This document shows, in pieces, positions 39,223-60,241 of a stretch of 64,000 nt of DNA. The stretch comes from Paramyrothecium sp. XJ0827 (lineage: Eukaryota > Ascomycota > Sordariomycetes > Hypocreales > Stachybotryaceae). The translations under genes were made by a program, and so were the position numbers. The stretch spans positions 124,001 through 188,000 of the forward strand of contig JAJFPB010000007.1 in NCBI GenBank assembly GCA_020881915.1, written 5' to 3'. Position 1 is the stretch's first letter; each line of letters starts with the position of its first letter. The notes under the pieces are model-generated. The model was not told the origin of the DNA, ran no database searches, and was given only the letters and a program-made list of their open reading frames with translations.

Positions 39223-39314
39223 GACTCGTAATCCGAGTCAGCAGATCGGGCCTTGTTCTCGGCACCTTTTTCTGCCCCTTTTCCTGCCACATGAGGAGTT
39301 TGCAGATTCTCGTG
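39223..39314 (-). repeat. 92-bp copy of an MFS gene fragment
   Basis: Matches 59329-59420 over 92 bp without gaps and with six mismatches (about 93% identity). The source is the loop-coding part of the MFS transporter gene. The copy has the same orientation and ends three bases beyond the stop codon of the gene at 39317-40285. Confidence 0.95.
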
Positions 39315-39316
39315 AA

Positions 39317-40285
39317 CTAAAACCAATTGACTGTGGGGAGACAGCATGGAGCGATAACCCCGGCTGGACCATCATGGCCGGCGTCTATCTGTATAGATGC
39401 ATCGGAATCCTTCCTCTTTGATTCCACCTCATCTTTGGAGGCAAGGTATGGCAGCGCCTGCGTCGTTCCCGGCCGCCCGGCAAACCAATCCCAAAGGCAC
39501 TCTGGGAGCGGTGTTGTCCCGTGGCTCACCAAGCTGCGCTGGAAGCCACAGCCACGTAGTCCGTGATTCTTGAGAACAACATCTAGGCGTCCTTCGTATG
39601 TGTGAATTGTTCCGGGATGCGATCTGTCGTGCAGAACTAAGGCCCATGGATGTCTCAACGAAGGAGGTCCCTGGCACGACCACGGAATCGAGACGTAATG
39701 CAGCAAGACCGGAGTGAATACCCCGGAAAGCCTGTCGCGAATAACGTGAACAGCGTCATCCGGTAGACAGACGTATGAAATCTCGCGATCAGCTTCCAAC
39801 CTGCCCTGAAACTTGGTGTATTCAACGTACAATCTCTTGTATTCCGGAAGGTGTCGTCTTTGTGCTGGAAACCCTGTTGCCGTTGCACAACCGCGATGAA
39901 AATGACGGATTGTGTGTATCTTGAAGGGATGCGACGGCTGGAGAATCGCTTCGAGGAGTTCTACTGTGTTCACGGGTGCTTCGATGATCCAAGGTGACAT
40001 GGGGACATTGATTGGCCCAGGGACATGTGTCGTCGGGATTTCGGCCGCATCTATCCGTTCGAAAGCTAGAATATAACGGCCGTATGCCCACGTGAGGTCG
40101 TGGAGGGTTTGCAATGGGAGATCTCCGTCGGCTACCTCACGCCCCGCGGGGCCATCGCGCGGTTTGGTTTCTGCGTCCTGGCTGCCCGTCAGCGCTGCCG
40201 CATTCTGAGCAGCCCTTTGTTGTAGGCGCTTGCTCCTGCGCGGAGCGGCTGTTGTCTCAGATATTCTTTTCTTATAGCTGGCCAT
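39317..40285 (-). CDS. Uncharacterised protein
   Basis: I do not recognise the family. The ATG at 40285 gives 322 residues in one exon. The frame is open upstream to 40483, but that part reads like non-coding DNA. The N-terminus is basic and low-complexity (RRSKRLQQRAAQNAAA), a possible nuclear signal, followed by a folded-looking region with TWAYGRYILAFERI, FHRGCATATG and HYVSIPWSCQGP. The last 40 residues are polar and the stop TAG at 39317-39319 sits directly against the duplicated MFS fragment. It is divergent from the amidoligase gene across 380 bp, so the two may be co-regulated. Confidence 0.6.
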   Translation of the reverse strand: MASYKKRISETTAAPRRSKRLQQRAAQNAAALTGSQDAETKPRDGPAGREVADGDLPLQTLHDLTWAYGRYILAFERIDAAEIPTTHVPGPINVPMSPWIIEAPVNTVELLEAILQPSHPFKIHTIRHFHRGCATATGFPAQRRHLPEYKRLYVEYTKFQGRLEADREISYVCLPDDAVHVIRDRLSGVFTPVLLHYVSIPWSCQGPPSLRHPWALVLHDRSHPGTIHTYEGRLDVVLKNHGLRGCGFQRSLVSHGTTPLPECLWDWFAGRPGTTQALPYLASKDEVESKRKDSDASIQIDAGHDGPAGVIAPCCLPTVNWF

Positions 40286-40665
40286 GATGTAAAGGATTAG
40301 GAGTAGATTGGGGTCAGAATGAGCAAGTAGGCAGGCCGCTAGTAGCCCAGGTAGGCAGGCTCTGGGGGTTTTATACACGAATTGCCTTGGAGAAAATAAG
40401 GTAAAGAGGCTAGCAAAGGTAACGCAGCATGGGAAGTAATTAAAGTGAAGCGAGAATTCAAATGGCTGACGTAGTTCCTGCACCCCCTTCCCCCGTTTAT
40501 TAAGCCTCGAGATGCCTCAGGCCGGACGACTGGTCTACGTAAGGTACCTTACAGGTAGCTACAGCGCCGTACCTTATACTCTAACCTGTCGTTCTCTGCC
40601 TACACTCCATCAATTCAACAAGCCAGAGCCATATTCGAAAGAAACGCGACGAAGAACGGTTCATC
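40286..40665. promoter_or_regulatory. Shared divergent promoter region
   Basis: 380 bp between the unknown minus-strand gene and the plus-strand amidoligase. No competing ORF. No specific operator recognised. Confidence 0.45.
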
Positions 40666-41565
40666 ATGCCCACACAGCTGCAGTTCGGTGTCGAGCTGGA
40701 GATGGCCATCAGGCCAAACGCGCCTTGCCTCGAGGTTCTCCAAGAATACTTTGGATTTATGCTAACAGGCGGTCCATCACAGGAGTACAAAGAAGTCAGG
40801 TCCAATAACCTTCGCGCCATTCTAGACTTTCTTCGCGCCTTTTTCGGACAAGAGGGCATTTTGGTGAACGACCACCTCGTCGGCGAATCGAAGAAACTTC
40901 GAGACACGGACGACGCGACCGATACGACCGATACGACCGATTATACGCGGTGGAGTGTCATTTCCGATCCGTCGATCAAGACGTCTGGCCTGGACTACGG
41001 CATCGAGGTGGTTTCCCCCATCTTCTTGTCCAATGCCGGGCATTGGCAACACGAGTCTACAGGCCCCTGGCAAGCCGAGATTGCCAAAGTGTGGATCATT
41101 ATTGGAAAGTATTTCGATGTTGTCACGGAGAAACGACACAGATGTGGCACACATATCCACGTCAGCCCTGTTGGCGGTTTCGCGGTTGCCCAGGTCAGGC
41201 ACATGGCTCGTTTCTTGGTCAAGTCGCATCGGACAATCACAAGATCCATCCCGGAGAATCGTCGGGATTCTTCGTACGCTAGATCCAATTTCCTTCTCCG
41301 AAGTGCAGTACCTTGTCTCGAGACATTGACAGCAGGCCTGTCACTTGAAGATCTGGTCGAAAGGATGATGCCCGAGCCGCAGGATGCGCAGAACTAGATA
41401 CTCGGCGATCCGAAGTATGCGGCATGGAATTTCTTCCCACTCTTGAGCGACAAAGGAACTATCGAGTTTCGACAGCCTCCGCATGTCAACAATTATGAGG
41501 AGATGGAGCATTGGGTCCAGTGGACCTTGAATCTCTTCTTCCGTGGCATGAGATACGACGGATAA
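40666..41565 (+). pseudogene. Amidoligase-type COOH-NH2 ligase with in-frame TAG
   Basis: The fold joins a carboxylate and an amine using ATP. Start at 40666. FGVELEMAI carries the metal-binding Glu pair, GLDYGIEVVSPI follows, and RCGTHIHVSP holds the His pair. A 9-bp repeat (GATACGACC) encodes DTTDTT near residue 87. TAG at 41395-41397 ends the frame after 243 codons, but the same frame continues 55 codons to TAA at 41563 and encodes the conserved tail YAAWNFFPLL and TIEFRQPPHV. The truncated protein lacks the catalytic EFR motif. Alternatives: readthrough, or a 42-nt in-frame intron with poor signals (GTCGAA...CTAG) that would remove the stop. The mutation looks recent because the tail is otherwise intact. 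Confidence 0.7.
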
Positions 41566-43183: not shown

Positions 43184-45416
43184 TCATGTCTCTAGATCCA
43201 GGTTAGTGTTGATTGGATAAGCATCTTCAAATAAGACATGCTTGCCATTCTGCTGCTCCTGGCCCTGCTCAACGCTTTGATTAGCTGACGGGACATTGCT
43301 AACAGATCTTTCAGGCGGTCAGACGAAGGGTACATACCCAATCTGCGAGTTTAAACGATCTTGACAGCATGCGTAAGCAGGCAATGAATGAAGTGGAAAG
43401 GAGGAACTGCTTACAAGCCTGCTGAAGCCAGCACCGCCCACCGCCGTTATCTTTCGTTATCTGTAGACATGATTAACTCACCTATAGGTTTTCTCATCAG
43501 AATTGTTGTGTGAAACTTACGGCATGTTTCATTCGGCCAGCTAAATAAGGTATTGGCATCAGTAAATTTTCAGCACAAGTCACATATGACTTCGTGCAAA
43601 CGTACAAATCGTTCATACGTTGCCTGGCACCAAATGTTAGTAAGTCTCTGGCGGTAAGATGTGATTGAGCTACCGTAGTGGCATTGTTGTTGGTCTGTCC
43701 GATGGTGTATGTTAGCAGGGACGTTCGATTATAACATCACAGCCGGGAGGTTTCTTACGGCGCCAGATGCCTCGGCGGCCTTATATTGGAAGTCAGTACT
43801 CTCCATACATCCATGCATGTATTGACTTACCACGGCCTTCTTCTCCGCGTTCTGAAGGCATGAAATATTAGGCACAGCTTAGCTTAAGTTTAGACTTGAA
43901 GGACTTACTGCAGCCTCTTTGCATAGTTTCTGAGATTTGTGAGTCATAGGATAGCATTTATAGCATTTTGCTAAAGTGGGACATTGGCTGTAGAGAAGAA
44001 CTTACCTCATGCTCGGCCTGGAGTGCCTGGCAAGAGGCTAGCATCTTCCCGAATAGCCCTCAAGTCCACGCTTTTTCAGTACATACCGAAATCTGCGCCA
44101 GTTTCGCCTGAAACCTGTCAGCCATCAAATTCTCGGCCAGTAGCTAAAAATGCATAGGATAACTCACATTCGCTGCCGCCAGGTAATTCTATAGGCTATC
44201 AGTTCAAAAAGTCTTGAGAATAACATCACACGGATGGGGGATACTAACGTCGCGCTTATTGCGCCAGAACTATAGCAAAAAGACATCATTAATGATACGT
44301 TATAATGAAGTTCAGCCACAGAAAACCTACCTGAGGAGATTCCTAAGGCACGGTCAGCATCAGTGATCTTGCTTCTTCATTCTGGATATTGGTTCATACC
44401 TCAGCTACAGGAGTCTAGATTTTTGCAAACCGTAGGTCAGCATGTCTAAGTCAATTGTAGAATGCGGGCGGTGGTAAGCTGAGATACTTACTCCTCCCTC
44501 GGTCTATTTTGCAGTCAGTAAACCATGAAAAGATGCTTGCAGAGCTATGCTCCGATTGTTACACGTACCGGTGGCCGGAGCCAACACTTGGGGCCATGAT
44601 GGCCGGGCTTGCCGCAATGCGGGCACTACCTTGACGTGTCACCGAATCATCCCATAGTGAACTTGGCAAAGTAAGCCAATTACCGTCTTCGCGGCTATGG
44701 AATTGGATTAGTATCAAAGTCTGGCCAGGTAACGATACATGTGCTCACGCTTCTTAACCCGATTGTCGGCTGTGGTGAGCATCTGATGTCAGGATATGTG
44801 ATACCCAAAGGCCTGTTCGAACCATACTCACCATTGACCTTTGGGTTCTCTACGTGCATCCTTGTCAACGTACGGTCCCAAATTTGCAAACAGGAAAAGG
44901 CAGGTAGACTGACTCTGCTTTTGTGCTTTCTCTTCGATGGGAATTGATGCGTTAGTAAACATGATTGTGCATGGCTGAGTGCTTTGAAATGGCCTACCTG
45001 GCTTAGTTGGAGCCACTTCAGACAGTGAAGTTCAGGTCAAATCGTGTTCCAAGCATCGGGCGAGGAGAAAGGGACGAGGCTTACTTGTGCAATTCCGGTA
45101 CTAATCATGCGATCCATTATTAATTTTTGTTTGATGCCTTGGATTTCGGGTTCACGTACCAGATTGATTGATGAAATTGGTAGATTTCTAGACACCTTGT
45201 CAGCCGTGCTTCACGAACACCGATGCGATATGGAGGCACCCGAACAGGGGTCAAACTTACTCGTTGCGACTTTGCTGCCTGTATTAGTGTATCGCACGTT
45301 AATTCCCCCACTCGCCAGCCAGGAAGGGAACGCTGCATCGAACTTACAGAGCCAAGGGATGGATTGTGCACAAGTCTAGAAGTGGGATTGATGTCCGGCA
45401 GCACTTTTGACAACAT
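43184..45416 (-). CDS. Micro-exon gene: about 25 exons, mostly 5-39 nt, unknown protein
   Basis: Not a known family to me. Exons (5'-3'): 45416-45348, 45278-45261, 45187-45156, 45100-45085, 45015-44998, 44931-44914, 44847-44832, 44694-44684, 44586-44569 (or from 44607), 44503-44492, 44414-44400, 44342-44331, then eight of exactly 21 nt (44269-44249, 44188-44168, 44107-44087, 44026-44006, 43929-43909, 43851-43831, 43779-43759, 43694-43674), then 43623-43619, 43540-43521, 43450-43415, 43359-43338 and 43298-43184 (stop). Nearly every exon is followed by GTAAGT/GTGAGT/GTATGT-like donors and preceded by CTAAC/CTGAC-type branch sites and YAG. Introns are mostly 50-78 nt. Spliced CDS is about 207-214 codons without a stop. 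The 21-nt exons give Ala/Lys/Glu-rich heptads (for example AKLAQIS, ALQAEHE), suggesting helix or coiled coil. The C-terminal exon is Gln/Asn-rich. No signal peptide. Individual boundaries (exons 3, 9, 21, 23, 25) are uncertain. Confidence 0.72.
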
Positions 45417-45600
45417 CTTAGACAAGCAAGACGGGCAGTCACGACGCCGGGGCGGTCCTTACCGCCCCCGCTAAACATCATCTTATTCCCGTCCCCCACT
45501 AGGCTACCTCCTTAAGGCCCGTAAATGCTGGAGTTCCAGCAGCACTTTGGCCTATACATTGCTGAACTTCCAGCGGTTTAAAGATCAGGGCCTGAGCGGC

Positions 45601-46430
45601 AAGTGCCTGCCCGCCAGCGTGATGTTTCTGACAGCTAACTTAGCCACCGACATGGGCAGCGTCTCGGGAATGTTCAGGTCGATTCCGATCCCCCAAGCGA
45701 TGATTAAAGCTGAAAGGTCTTGAACACATGGTCCCTCAAGGTTTGTGGCGCGCGAGGGTGCAATTCGTATCCCTCGCGCGGCCCGTTCACGCCCTGGGGG
45801 CCCTTGCTCACAGTTCCCACGAATGGCTCCTGAACAAAGGTGAGTGTGGCTGAGAGGCTATTGATGAAGTCTTTTGGGGAATCTGTAAGCTTTCCTCCGG
45901 ACATTTCAGCACTGGCCAGGAGCGGGTGGCCTAGGTCAGCCCAGGAGCGGTGCAGGATGCCAGCAAGGGGTAATGTGAGCGGTCCGCCGCGCCTCATGGT
46001 GCTGGGGGATGGCACAGTGTCGTAGAACTGATTCACCGCGGCTTCATAGCTGGGGAGAGTATATGATGGACGATAGCATATGTTCTTGGGGTCTACTTTT
46101 ATAGCCTCTCGTATTTTTCCTTCGAGTTGTAGTTGGACCCAATCGGCATCGATGGCTATAACGAGCATGTTGTTCCTGTTGGGAGCCCTGGGTTTAGAGG
46201 AGAAGGGAAATGCCTGTTCACTGAGGAGAGAATGTACCCTTGCTGAAATTCCAAGCACATGTCGGCCAAGCCTAAGAAGATTTATCTGTTCAGCAAACTG
46301 ACCATTTCCGGCTTGAGTTGCTTCTTGAGGTGAGCAAGAGCTGCCTCCACCCTACCCCAGCCTAGATTGTACTTTGAGTCATTCTTGAGGTGGTCGATTA
46401 GGAGCTATTGTGGCGTGACGCCACTAGGGC
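45601..46430 (-). pseudogene. Broken unidentified gene
   Basis: Three coding-like minus segments follow one another in different frames. About 46415-46290 encodes KYNLGWGRVEAALAHLKKQ. 46330-45704 encodes the main part with MLVIAIDADWVQLQ and LTFVQEPFVGTVSKGP. About 45721-45601 encodes WGIGIDLNIPETLPMSVAKL and a stop. Frame changes near 46275 and 45722 have no splice sites, so two indels are likely. The family is not recognised. It lies just upstream of the micro-exon gene on the same strand. Confidence 0.4.
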
Positions 46431-47701
46431 TTGCTGGCCTGAGGGACAACGACCTTGAAACGGGCGCGGAAAAGAAAGACTGGGCAAGCCGAGACGAATT
46501 CAAGGCCTGGGCACGGGAAACCCCCCCTAACGAGTATCAGATCGCTCAGCACCTTTATGACCCAGTTGCTTATATCCTCCAGCACGATTACAATATTCCA
46601 GAGCCCCATTGTACCTGCATTCACGTCCATGAAGGTTCCACAAGTCACTGCATATGTGATTAATGAAGCTAAATGATAGCTTTGTGGGTACATGGATGTG
46701 AACATCACTGCCCAAGTATATGTTGGCAATTCTTTCTACCTTCAGGTCTCTTATAGTTTAGTTATCGTTATAGTCACTCTTTTATCTTTTTTTTCAGGTA
46801 TTGACCACAAATTGAATATGTTCTGAGCTACCAACAATTCCATTTCATATAGCTGAAGGGAGAGTAAAATAGCGGAGACGAGCAAATATACCTTGATACC
46901 AACTCAAATATCAGAAACAAAGAACTATGTAATCTCCAACCTAGGTAAGAGGCCTTTGGCAACCCGATATCGAATGACAGCGTTGAGGTGCCCAATAAAA
47001 GAGATGCTCAGAAGACTTGGGACGGGGGACTAGGGGTAACATGGAACAAGGTTACCAGCTCTTGAACAAATGGGCTATTCTGGAGTACCACCTCATAGCC
47101 CCTGAATTGGTTGACGTGCAGATAGTCTCATCTTACGATTTGGGGTTTGGCACGCGTGTTATCGAGTGCCGGGACAAGGGTCATATGCCAGCTTAAAGTA
47201 GTCCGCATCTCTATCACTAAGGCTCCGTATTCAACTCGTGTTCAGCCATCAGTGATGTATAGTGTCTTTGCGGGTCATTTTAGCTACGGATTTTTGCCTA
47301 ATATCTTCAATTAGTCCACAGACATGGTTACAAGGACGGCATGTGGCGATAAGGGGCCGTTCAATATCTACGAACGCTTAGTTGTGTAGAGTTGCAAGTC
47401 GTATTGAGGCTGTCACTAATTATCAAGCAGGGGCTAATGGCACAGATGTATGCGGCATTGTGCTGATCGAGGAGATCCAACCTTAACATTGATAGGCAGA
47501 GGATTGTAGAATTATGTGCTGTTTTCAGAGGTCTGGAAAGTTTCGATAGATATAAAAAGCTCTCTTTGTTGTGATTTTGTATTGCCATCGCAAGGCTTAT
47601 CAGTTGGTAGTTTATGGACGGCGAGAGGGAACTTGCACCCAAGTTTGTCAAATGTCAGGCCCTCAAACTCCTCCAAGGACAGCGCGCTCTGGGTAGTGCT
47701 A
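46431..47701. other. Spacer, no firm gene
   Basis: Overlapping opposite frames at 46367-46729 look partly coding, but neither has a domain or start context that decides the strand. The rest shows nothing. Confidence 0.3.
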
Positions 47702-49587
47702 CTATAGCTGCGACCCAATCACATTCTCCAGATCTCGAAGGACCTCCTTGGCAGCTCGCTCACCACTCCTGACAGCACCCTCCATGTACCCCTTCCATTC
47801 TGCTGCAGTCTCGGTACCTGCGAAATGTAGATTCCCCAGGGGTTGCCTCAACGACCCGGAATCAAGCGAGTCAAGCGCACCTGGCGGGAGACTGGCGCAT
47901 GGGCATCCACCACCAGTCCACTGATCTTGCGACCAGTCATGAGAGATCATCTCTACAAATTCCTGGCTGACCTTACTCTCATCTTGAAAGACAGATACGA
48001 GCTGATAAATGAGCCTCTCCTTCTGTTCTTCCTGCGGTAGAGAGACCCACTCTTCAGCCAGACGACCGACCATGAAGCAAGTCAGTGCGTGCTTGTCATC
48101 GGAAGGGCTGCTTGTGTCTCTAATGACACTAGCTGGACCAACGAAGGACTGTACCAGACCACAAAAACCCTTATCTACCCAGAATGGGGTCTTGAAAATC
48201 ACAATCGCCTTGACATACGTGCCGTAACCTGCAGCTGATGACCATGCTTGCTTCACTGGGTGTAGCCTAGGCTGGAAGTTGATATGAGCCAGGGCCGGGC
48301 TGGGTACTGTAGTAATCACTTTTCGAGCCAGAAACTTTGAGCCGTCAGCCCCGTCCACCTTGACGAAGTTGGGGCCATCCTGGAGGACATCCGTTGCAGG
48401 GCAGTTGAGCCGGATACTGCCTGAAGGGAGCTCAGCGGCCATTCTCTTGGCAACTGCTTGTGTTCCATAACGAAGGCGGAGGTGTTGGCCGCCACCCTTT
48501 CTGTCGGATCGCATGTTTAGTAAGCCCCCGCCTGACTTGCAATAGTTGAGGAAGTATAGTGCTGAAATCTCTGAAGGCTCAACACCAAGCATTGCGCGCG
48601 TCCAGACAGAAGCTGTGGCTATGCTAGTTTCGCAGGCGTTAAGTGACCGGAGATATGCTTCGAAGGTCAGGCTGTCGAGGATTTTGTTTTGAGGCCGTGC
48701 CGTATCCAACGCTTGGCAGTCGGCTTCGCACGTGTCACGAATTCGAGCCACGTCTTCCGCTGTAGCTGGATCGAACTAACGAGCTTGGTCAGCACTGTCG
48801 TAATTAATTAATTCGAGGCCGGGCTTACCTTGGGTAGTTCTCCGTAGGGGAATTGAGAAACGAGTCCTTCCTGGTCTTGAAGAATGCAGTTGCCGTTGGT
48901 GTTCTGCTCGATAAGCTCAAGTCCGTACCGCCTCACCAGGCCGATCATCTTGGTCTGGTTGACATCATTGATCCATGCCGCGCCAAACTCGACTGTACCT
49001 TTACCATCTGACGTGGGCTGAGACCACAGCCTCCCACCCACGCGATCGCGAGCTTCAAGGACTACGCACGATGAACCCCCACGGAGCACCTCGTGCGCTG
49101 CGGAGAGACCAGCCAGCCCTGAACCGATGATGACCACATCGACTGTTTTGTAGCTTGTTTCGCCTTTCAAGACGCGAGGCACAGACTGTCGCTTTTCCTG
49201 GTAGGCTATGACTGCATCCACCTCGAAGAGCCAGCCCGGGACAGCCAGCTGTGTCACAGGAACCAGTGTGATTGCTGGTCGATGACCCCGCAAGAAGCGT
49301 TGCACAAGTCTGGTGTGTTTTCTATGGGCGGGATCGTAGTTGACGATGTACAGTGTCAGCTTCGCAATGTCATTAATGGTCGCACCGGCTGCGACAATGA
49401 CTTTGCGGAGATTGAACAGTGCTAGGTGGATCTGGGACTCATAGTCGGCTGGTACATGACCATCCTTGGTGGCACCGACTTGTCCTGAGACGTGAACGAC
49501 GCCAGAGCCGCTATGTGTAACTGTGGCTGGCGCAAAGTAGGCTTTTCCAGTATTGTGCAAGTCTAGCGTCTCAACAAGGGGGGCCAT
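47702..49587 (-). CDS. RidA/YjgF domain fused to flavin amine oxidase
   Basis: A two-domain enzyme. Residues of about 1-130 are a RidA-type imine/enamine deaminase domain (VHVSGQVGA, AAGATINDIAKLTLYIV, VPGWLFEVDAVIA). From about residue 148 a monoamine-oxidase-type FAD domain follows (VVIIGSGLAGLSAAHEV dinucleotide fold, EARDRVGGR, C-terminal LHFAGTETAAEWKGYMEGA). One intron, 48776-48828, joins GELPK to FDPATAE in phase 0. ATG at 49587; an upstream GTG is ignored. The oxidase turns an amine into an imine plus H2O2, and RidA speeds hydrolysis of the imine to carbonyl and ammonia, so the fusion is chemically sensible (inference). Neighbours: the divergent aldehyde dehydrogenase would oxidise the resulting aldehyde. 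About 610 residues, intact. Confidence 0.92.
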
Positions 49588-58424: not shown

Positions 58425-60241
58425 TCAGTGAGATAACCCCTTGGACTTGGCATAGTCAACGTCCTTCCAGTATCGGTTTCCACTCTTCTCTCTTAAAGTG
58501 CGTCCATATCGTACCATGAAAAACAAGCTCGCATTCCACAAAAAGCCAATGGCTCCGACAATGCAGTAGACCCTGAGGTACCCACTCGCCTGCAGCCAGG
58601 GAGTAATGCCCCAATTGATCGCGAAAGAGAGCGTGTTTCGGATGATGACACAAGTCGTAACCATCTGACCCGACAGTTCTGGATAACTGGAGATGGCGTA
58701 GTTGAGGGCCGCAGCAACGCAGAGGGATGAATTGACCGCGAGAATGGCTTGGGTGATTACAAGCGCGAACCAATGAAGGTGGTATGTGACGGCAAGTCCG
58801 TAAAGAATCATGCCGAATGGGACAAGGAAGCAGCCGGCAATGAACAGCCACAAAGTATGCTCGGGTTCAGAAATGCCGCCGTTGCGACGGGCCAGTTTGA
58901 GGGTAAGCATTTGGCCAACCTTTCCGCAGTAAATTCCACTAAAAGACCCTGTCAGCTTCCAGTCATGTTAACTTGTTGTTAGCAGAACTTACCCAATAAT
59001 CGTACCAACAATACCTCCGGCGTACCCACCAGCGACGCCAGCTGTGCTGAAACCGTATTCAGTGGTGTATATAGTGCCAATCGTAGCATTCTGCACCCCG
59101 GTCCACACAAGGTTGTTTGCGCCGTACATCAATCTATGTCCATGTAAGTATTCATAAAGCGAATCGTCAGGTGGCCAGAACCGAGAGACTTACCCGGCAT
59201 AGACAACTGGTGCATATGTAAAACCCTTGAACGGAGCAATGACCATGTCGAGGAAGCGATCGGGGCGTTTCTTGTCCTTGATGCTGAGTTTGTCCCAGTA
59301 TGTTTTTCTAGGCCATTGCACCTCACCCGACTCGTAATCCGAGTCAGCAGATCGAGCCTTGTCTTCGGCACCTTTTTCTGCCCCTTTTTCAGCCACGTGA
59401 GGAGTTTGCAGATTCTCGTGCGCTGTCGAAGTATGGAGATGCGGGTGCTTTCGGTCATAGTTGGTTTCCTCCATGAGGAAGAAGCAGTAGAAAAAGGCCA
59501 TGGCGTTGAAAATGGCACACCACCAAAGTGTCCACTTCCACCCCATGCCAATGTTGATAAAACCAGACATCATAGGGGCTAGCTTGCCTGCCAGGGCCAG
59601 CGCCCAGCCGTACCAGGCCAGGTACTGAGGGCGCTGGTGGACGAACCACACATCCGTGATGGAGATTTCGCAAAGGGATTCCACTGGGGCGCCAAAGAAT
59701 CCAAGAAGGATGCGATTGGCCAGATAGGGTCCGGAGGTTGTGCAGAGAGGAGCCACTGCAAGAATAATGGTGTTTGCAATGCATGAAAAGAGGTATACCG
59801 GTCTCTTTCCATACTGAAGGGCGATTGGTTGCCATATGACACAGCCCCAGCCGTAGAATAGGAACTATTCAGAGAGTCAGCATATCTCGATATGCCTAGC
59901 TGCAGTTTCTGACATACCATAATACCCGTGCCATTGTTGATATCCGCCAAGCTCAGCGATGTATGTTGACGAATTGGGGTAACAACGGAGTAGACTGCGC
60001 TCGACGGAATGGCAATCATAATAGTGTATACCACCACGCAACTGGTTGCCAGTAGCTTGCGCCTGAAGGTCCAGTTGAGAGGGTCTTCGGGATCCTCACT
60101 TGGCTGGGGGACAAGCATGATGTCATTCTGTCCGTTGCCATCGGCGTGCGATCCTACCAAAGTGCCATCTGTGTCGATGAGGCGGACTGTCCCCGGCGGG
60201 AACCGCACTTCAGTCTCTTCTCGGGAGCCGTTGCTCGACAT
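58425..60241 (-). CDS. MFS transporter (DHA1/HOL1-like)
   Basis: A twelve-helix plasma-membrane carrier. Exons 60241-59918, 59864-59194, 59133-58993 and 58938-58425; introns are 53, 60 and 54 nt. The N-terminal PEDPLNWTFRRK before helix 1, YGKRPVYLFS in loop 2-3, FGAPVESLCEISITDVWFV and the MEETNYDR word before the central loop match fungal DHA1/HOL1-type carriers. The central cytosolic loop is low-complexity and charged (EKGAEKGAEDKARS). The DNA encoding it (59329-59420) is the source of the 92-bp fragment found at 39223-39314. Probably imports the substrate of the neighbouring enzymes (inference). Confidence 0.9.
59329..59420 (-). repeat. Source copy of the duplicated 92-bp segment
   Basis: Inside the MFS coding exon; see the copy at 39223-39314. 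This copy is in frame and intact. Confidence 0.95.

Follow-up and report, generated by a model that had tools for sequence, protein, structure and literature searches.

A predicted micro-exon gene with consecutive 21-nt exons in the filamentous ascomycete Paramyrothecium sp. XJ0827

Introduction

Can a protein-coding gene of a filamentous ascomycete be assembled from more than twenty exons, most of them only a few codons long? The question is raised by the minus strand of a 64,000-nt stretch of the Paramyrothecium sp. XJ0827 genome (hereafter the window), which spans positions 124001-188000 of a 4.19-Mb contig in a genome of 51.8 Mb and 15 contigs. The footprint of two adjacent splice-site complexes is presumed to be longer than exons of this size, and with exons below that footprint it must be asked in what order the fungal spliceosome proceeds. 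In Fusarium species, members of the same order, genes contain on average ~1.8-1.9 introns according to the available text of PMC5677156; the locus described here has ~22 introns within 1.9 kb. The accessible part of a 2024 Trichoderma study (PMC11121469) states that functional microexons were previously undescribed in filamentous fungi and that experimental tests in fungi had been made only in fission yeast. Judged by title and abstract opening, the open-access literature yielded no ascomycete gene with such an architecture. We assessed the locus by a combination of splice-chain scoring, sequence searches and comparison with a related species.

Results

Splice signals at the locus

We searched for the best local run of exons of 4-60 nt that share one open frame and are separated by introns of 45-100 nt, each run being scored on donor, branch site and acceptor, with hand-set frequencies in the main run. 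The best open chain in 2.4 kb of the minus strand scored 41.8 and comprised 25 micro-exons. When the same 2.4 kb was dinucleotide-shuffled 1000 times, the mean score was 2.1 (sd 1.76), the maximum was 7.98, and no chain exceeded 3 exons. The runner-up among 44 overlapping segments of the window scored 10.9 and overlapped the 5' end of the micro-exon gene itself. The genome was also sampled in 18 ten-kb stretches, of which one has 6 kb in common with the window; their best score was 9.5. The scoring was repeated with Fusarium splice frequencies from the available text of PMC5677156 in place of the hand-set ones. Under these conditions the target scored 29.3 with 20 exons, the path ending after exon 20; 1000 shuffles reached at most 9.13 and 140 segments drawn from 174 kb of other sequence at most 8.5, while the best of the other window segments (12.2, in 45001-49000) overlapped the 5' end of the gene. 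The original prediction of a dense chain of donors and acceptors in an open frame on this strand is thereby upheld, and a chance alignment of splice-like sites is ruled out by the shuffles and the other genomic stretches.

A simple pattern, AG-N21-GTRNG, which is blind to frame and branch sites, matched 62 times in the window against 55 expected, a total that 14 of 100 shuffles reach and that is unremarkable. Six of these units, however, follow one another in tandem on the minus strand within 437 bases (43754-44190). At the level of the sequence, the micro-exon gene is genuine.

Exon and intron structure

The adopted model follows the 41.8 chain with the exception of exon 1, which is taken from the ATG, and exon 15, which is given 21 nt instead of 5; on the same scale it scores 35.9 (Table 1). 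It has ~23 exons, a number that differs from the ~25 first proposed. The internal exons (2-22) measure 11-57 nt, not 5-39 nt as first proposed: 20 of the 21 have 11-28 nt and one has 57 nt, in keeping with a micro-exon gene, in which exons of ~51 nt or less make up most of the coding sequence. As in such genes, most internal exons (17/21) are multiples of three. The starting phase is 1 for exons 5-9 and 0 for exons 10-23, and exons 14-21 form a series of eight consecutive 21-nt exons, six of which are detected by the pattern alone.

The 22 introns are 50-77 nt long (mean 63 nt), with a GC content of 0.44 as compared to 0.54 in the exons. The donor is GTRNG in 18 of them, and the acceptors are TAG (11), CAG (8) and AAG (3). 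A CTRAY branch site lies within 40 nt of the acceptor in 15 of the 22 introns, compared to a mean of 2.7 and a maximum of 9 in 2000 random draws, although the chain search itself gave credit for branch sites. Introns 9, 16 and 17 are without a YTRAY branch site.

Table 1. Features of the micro-exon locus and its surroundings, in positions of the window
Feature	Position	Strand	Length	Remarks
Exon 1	45348..45416	-	69 nt	plausible candidate ATG at 45416; chain search used a 28-nt internal-exon version, 45375-45348
Exon 2	45261..45274	-	14 nt	acceptor picked by branch site and downstream frame
Exon 3	45160..45187	-	28 nt	
Exon 4	45085..45100	-	16 nt	acceptor score weak
Exon 5	44998..45015	-	18 nt	phase 1; (M)APTKP; AAG acceptor, weak score
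Exon 6	44914..44931	-	18 nt	acceptor AAG, donor GTCAGT
Exon 7	44832..44849	-	18 nt	
Exon 8	44749..44769	-	21 nt	
Exon 9	44684..44694	-	11 nt	phase 1 to phase 0
Exon 10	44569..44625	-	57 nt	predicted CCHC zinc knuckle CPHCGKPGHHGPKC, then WLRPP; upstream intron without YTRAY
Exon 11	44492..44503	-	12 nt	TEGG
Exon 12	44400..44414	-	15 nt	TPVAE; 5-nt version in Fusarium-frequency path
Exon 13	44331..44342	-	12 nt	ESPQ
Exon 14	44249..44269	-	21 nt	FWRNKRD
Exon 15	44168..44188	-	21 nt	NYLAAAN; 5-nt version (44172-44168) in both chain-search paths
Exon 16	44087..44107	-	21 nt	AKLAQIS
Exon 17	44006..44026	-	21 nt	ALQAEHE; 32-nt version in Fusarium-frequency path
Exon 18	43909..43929	-	21 nt	KLCKEAA
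Exon 19	43831..43851	-	21 nt	NAEKKAV
Exon 20	43759..43779	-	21 nt	AAEASGA; acceptor AAG
Exon 21	43674..43694	-	21 nt	TNNNATT; weak donor GTAGCT, then 50-nt intron
Exon 22	43606..43623	-	18 nt	ATYERF
Exon 23	43521..43540	-	20 nt	phase 0; LAE and stop TGA (43531-43529), strong donor GTAAGT after
3' part	43184..43520	-		more good splice sites; open terminal stretch ending in TGA at 43184
Neighbour ORF	39317-40516	-		relatives: Xylaria curta, Epichloe bromicola, Clonostachys rosea, Bionectria ochroleuca and nameless records
ORF with Amidoligase_2 match	40585-41397	+		PF12224, E 1.3e-10
Upstream open frame	45704-46351	-	215 codons	~290 bases upstream of the candidate ATG

A counterpart in Paramyrothecium foliicola

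A search for relatives with the predicted protein had been proposed, and of 70 candidates examined with the spliced protein a single one passed E≤1, the 220-aa P. foliicola record HJFPF1_07464 (E 8.6e-7). BLASTP aligned the two with 33 identities in 41 residues. The record contains TCTSCGKPGHSGTECWLQPP followed immediately by LKLTQISALQAEHEKLCKEAA, and carries the knuckle together with LKLTQIS-ALQAEHE-KLCKEAA: the peptides of exons 17 and 18 are identical, the counterpart of exon 16 is LKLTQIS against AKLAQIS, and APTK, encoded by exon 5, occurs in the record as well. A 27-residue gap in the alignment corresponds exactly to exons 11-15 (81 nt), which are missing from HJFPF1_07464; the match runs to the final codon of exon 18 and no further, and the knuckle exon 10 has the same 3' exon end. 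The exon-bounded gap and the end of the match therefore indicate that the P. foliicola gene model is cut at the same places. Together with splice signals beyond chance, these peptides with matching exon ends favour the proposed protein-coding gene made of micro-exons.

Residues 142-201 of HJFPF1_07464 match the neighbour gene of the window at 68%, and the record is probably a chimeric conceptual model in which a few micro-exons are fused to the neighbouring gene. The expectation that gene finders would call the region empty was thus nearly right, with the qualification that the P. foliicola model holds a few exons joined to the next gene. A further protein search gave no matches and also missed HJFPF1_07464, which scores 44.9 bits locally, so that the absence of other relatives from that search means little. 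A search with the fused query gave 11 matches, which were read as the neighbour gene from coverage and length, without alignments. DNA and protein searches found no paralogue in the genome, although micro-exons are nearly invisible to a six-frame search. A pattern search for ALQAEHE flanked by splice dinucleotides hit 1 viral contig, which was taken for chance because its matched frame stays open past both ends and shows no likeness to the neighbouring exons.

An alternative to the adopted model would be a gene with fewer or partly different exons, some of the 23 being rarely used, placed at other edges or due to chance. We consider this rather unlikely, although it overlaps with the preferred reading, so that the odds of the two are not exclusive. 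It would agree with the P. foliicola model, which has exons 10, 16, 17 and 18 and not 11-15, with the other edges taken by the chain searches at exons 12, 15 and 17, and with the negative acceptor scores of exons 4, 5, 10 and 17. However, the skipped exons 11-15 are all multiples of three, each with YTRAY upstream (CTRAY in 4) and a GTRNG donor in 4/5, and the pattern alone recovers the six tandem 21-nt units.

Predicted protein

The joined exons encode, in order, a basic linker, a CCHC zinc knuckle and an alanine- and charge-rich stretch, with seven residues per 21-nt exon. The CX2CX4HX4C spacing of the knuckle is exact both in exon 10 and in HJFPF1_07464, where it reads CTSCGKPGHSGTEC. In Pfam, the protein of the window gave no PF00098 row at E≤1 and two zinc-ribbon rows, both below cut-off, and HJFPF1_07464 matched the PF00098 zinc knuckle with 16.4 bits, under the cut-off of 20.8. 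The Pfam scores sit below cut-off, and the knuckle is a putative nucleic-acid binder of the RNA/DNA-binding type. Among solved structures the knuckle matches were weak (best E 1.4).

Zinc-knuckle stretches are found elsewhere in the genome, 111 of them at E≤10. One score (17.5 bits) is shared by 40, of which 23 lie in 131-codon frames, and these 40 look like copies of one repeated element.

Coiled-coil heptads, which would be expected from 21-nt exons as in chicken BG, were considered and are not supported. The hydrophobic a/d stripe is no better than that of within-exon shuffles, which reached the observed value in 6818/20000 cases for exons 15-20 and in 10323/20000 for exons 14-21.

Frame choice and the 3' end

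The length of exon 15 sets the frame from exon 16 onward. The highest-scoring chains under both scorings favour the 5-nt version, which puts the 21-nt exons into a different frame; in the 41.8 chain that frame avoids the stop in exon 23. Exon 15 was taken as 21 nt because only that frame yields the P. foliicola peptides. In the adopted frame, exons 1-22 join into 165 open codons, after which exon 23 adds LAE and a TGA, even though strong donors follow; the single frame of 207-214 codons with a 41-codon last exon was not confirmed. The gene may end in exon 23; alternatively, it may employ a different site, or its 3' end may have been damaged.

Damage of this kind would suit a decaying gene, one that worked in an ancestor and has become a pseudogene in this strain. 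Decay is suggested by the stop in exon 23 and by the state of the 3' end, and from exon 20 the best 12 listed paths in the adopted frame to the TGA at 43184 all keep the 50-nt intron 21 unspliced in place of separate exons 21 and 22. Nevertheless, 22 exons retain their sites and an open frame, and ALQAEHEKLCKEAA is identical in P. foliicola, as compared to 68% over the matched 60 residues of the neighbour gene. We regard decay as improbable.

The crowding of many similar-sized introns brings to mind a recent burst of intron gain, by introner-like mobile introns or by copying of a tandem exon-intron unit. The introns of this gene, compared with one another, are no more alike than shuffles (best local score 22, against 19-25 in 20 shuffled sets), and exon-exon scores do not exceed 16, with no shuffle control for the exons. 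Recent introners were therefore rejected, as the introns lack the similarity such elements would have; the intron test bears on recent gain only and not on an old burst whose similarity has been lost. A recent burst is very improbable. The locus is known here from sequence alone, which would accommodate a spliced non-coding RNA with exons open by accident, but the in-frame peptides common to P. foliicola, including the CX2CX4HX4C knuckle, leave that explanation scarcely credible.

Genomic context

The ORF with the Amidoligase_2 match separates the micro-exon gene from the neighbour ORF, its fusion partner in HJFPF1_07464. Neither this neighbour ORF nor the open frame upstream of the candidate ATG has a Pfam match at E≤1. 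Just past the stop of the neighbour ORF lies a 92-base stretch (39223-39314) that is 93% identical to 59329-59420, part of an open frame (59190-59864) representing a putative transporter gene; the 92-base stretch looks like a transplanted gene fragment.

Discussion

The best reading of the locus, to which we assign a probability of about 0.8, is a hypocrealean protein-coding gene with ~22 short, ordinary spliceosomal introns. Judged from the sequence and its P. foliicola counterpart, it is a genuine micro-exon gene of a filamentous ascomycete, shared with P. foliicola and very probably coding. Because the introns are short and carry full signals, recognition across the introns is suggested: each would most likely be defined across itself (intron definition), one at a time, and exons of 11-28 nt would be tolerable if adjacent introns leave one after another. 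The resulting mRNA, if transcribed as we infer, would encode a small protein with a basic linker, a CCHC knuckle and seven-residue units.

Since the length of 17 of the 21 internal exons is divisible by three and each block has a single phase, exon skipping would keep the frame and could yield length variants. Failed splicing, by comparison, would leave the cell without the full protein. An in-frame stop follows from the retention of 14 of the 22 introns and a frame shift from that of 6 more, which leaves introns 5 and 19 retainable in frame. Transcription, the order of splicing, the isoforms and RNA binding are accordingly predicted features of the gene. More tentatively, and with considerable doubt on our part, these elements might be joined into one picture, in which a gene with much of its coding sequence cut into seven-codon exons has converged with bird BG and schistosome MEGs, produces length variants of a zinc-knuckle protein by skipping, and, through its heavy splicing load, has an output that reads out spliceosome capacity.

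The P. foliicola record suggests that catalogues of fungal genes would overlook or garble genes of this kind, and a compact fungal example would make sequential micro-exon splicing directly testable.

Among the known systems, the Trichoderma gene Xlr2 provides a functional micro-exon in a filamentous ascomycete (PMC11121469); as far as the available text of that paper describes it, the switch is a single micro-exon within a Zn(II)2Cys6 factor and not a gene made up of micro-exons. Aphid bicycle genes have many unusually small internal exons of one phase (PMC9168663), but are described in the accessible part of that source as an insect family whose members are putative gall effectors, carry CYC motifs and have exons of phase 2; the comparison is one of architecture. 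Schistosome MEGs contain 10-20 very short exons, whose lengths are for the most part divisible by three, and are hard to annotate (PMC10526429). They differ, in the portion of that report available, in having introns of 100 to almost 5000 bp, in encoding secreted proteins and in forming a superfamily, whereas the fungal gene has introns of 50-77 nt and a predicted zinc knuckle, and a second copy was not found in the genome searches. The nearest architecture found is that of the chicken BG tails (butyrophilin family), which the available text of PMC5938342 and PMC4046983 describes as strings of 21-nt exons with a few of 18 or 24 nt. BG genes likewise have one seven-residue unit per 21-nt exon, and intron read-through alters the BG tail. 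They encode bird immunoglobulin-type membrane proteins with 27-37 such exons, split codons and a hydrophobic stripe on the helical wheel, whereas exons 10-22 of the fungal gene have phase 0 and show no significant heptad pattern. The likeness to chicken BG would be one of architecture: in both, a 21-nt exon specifies a seven-residue unit.
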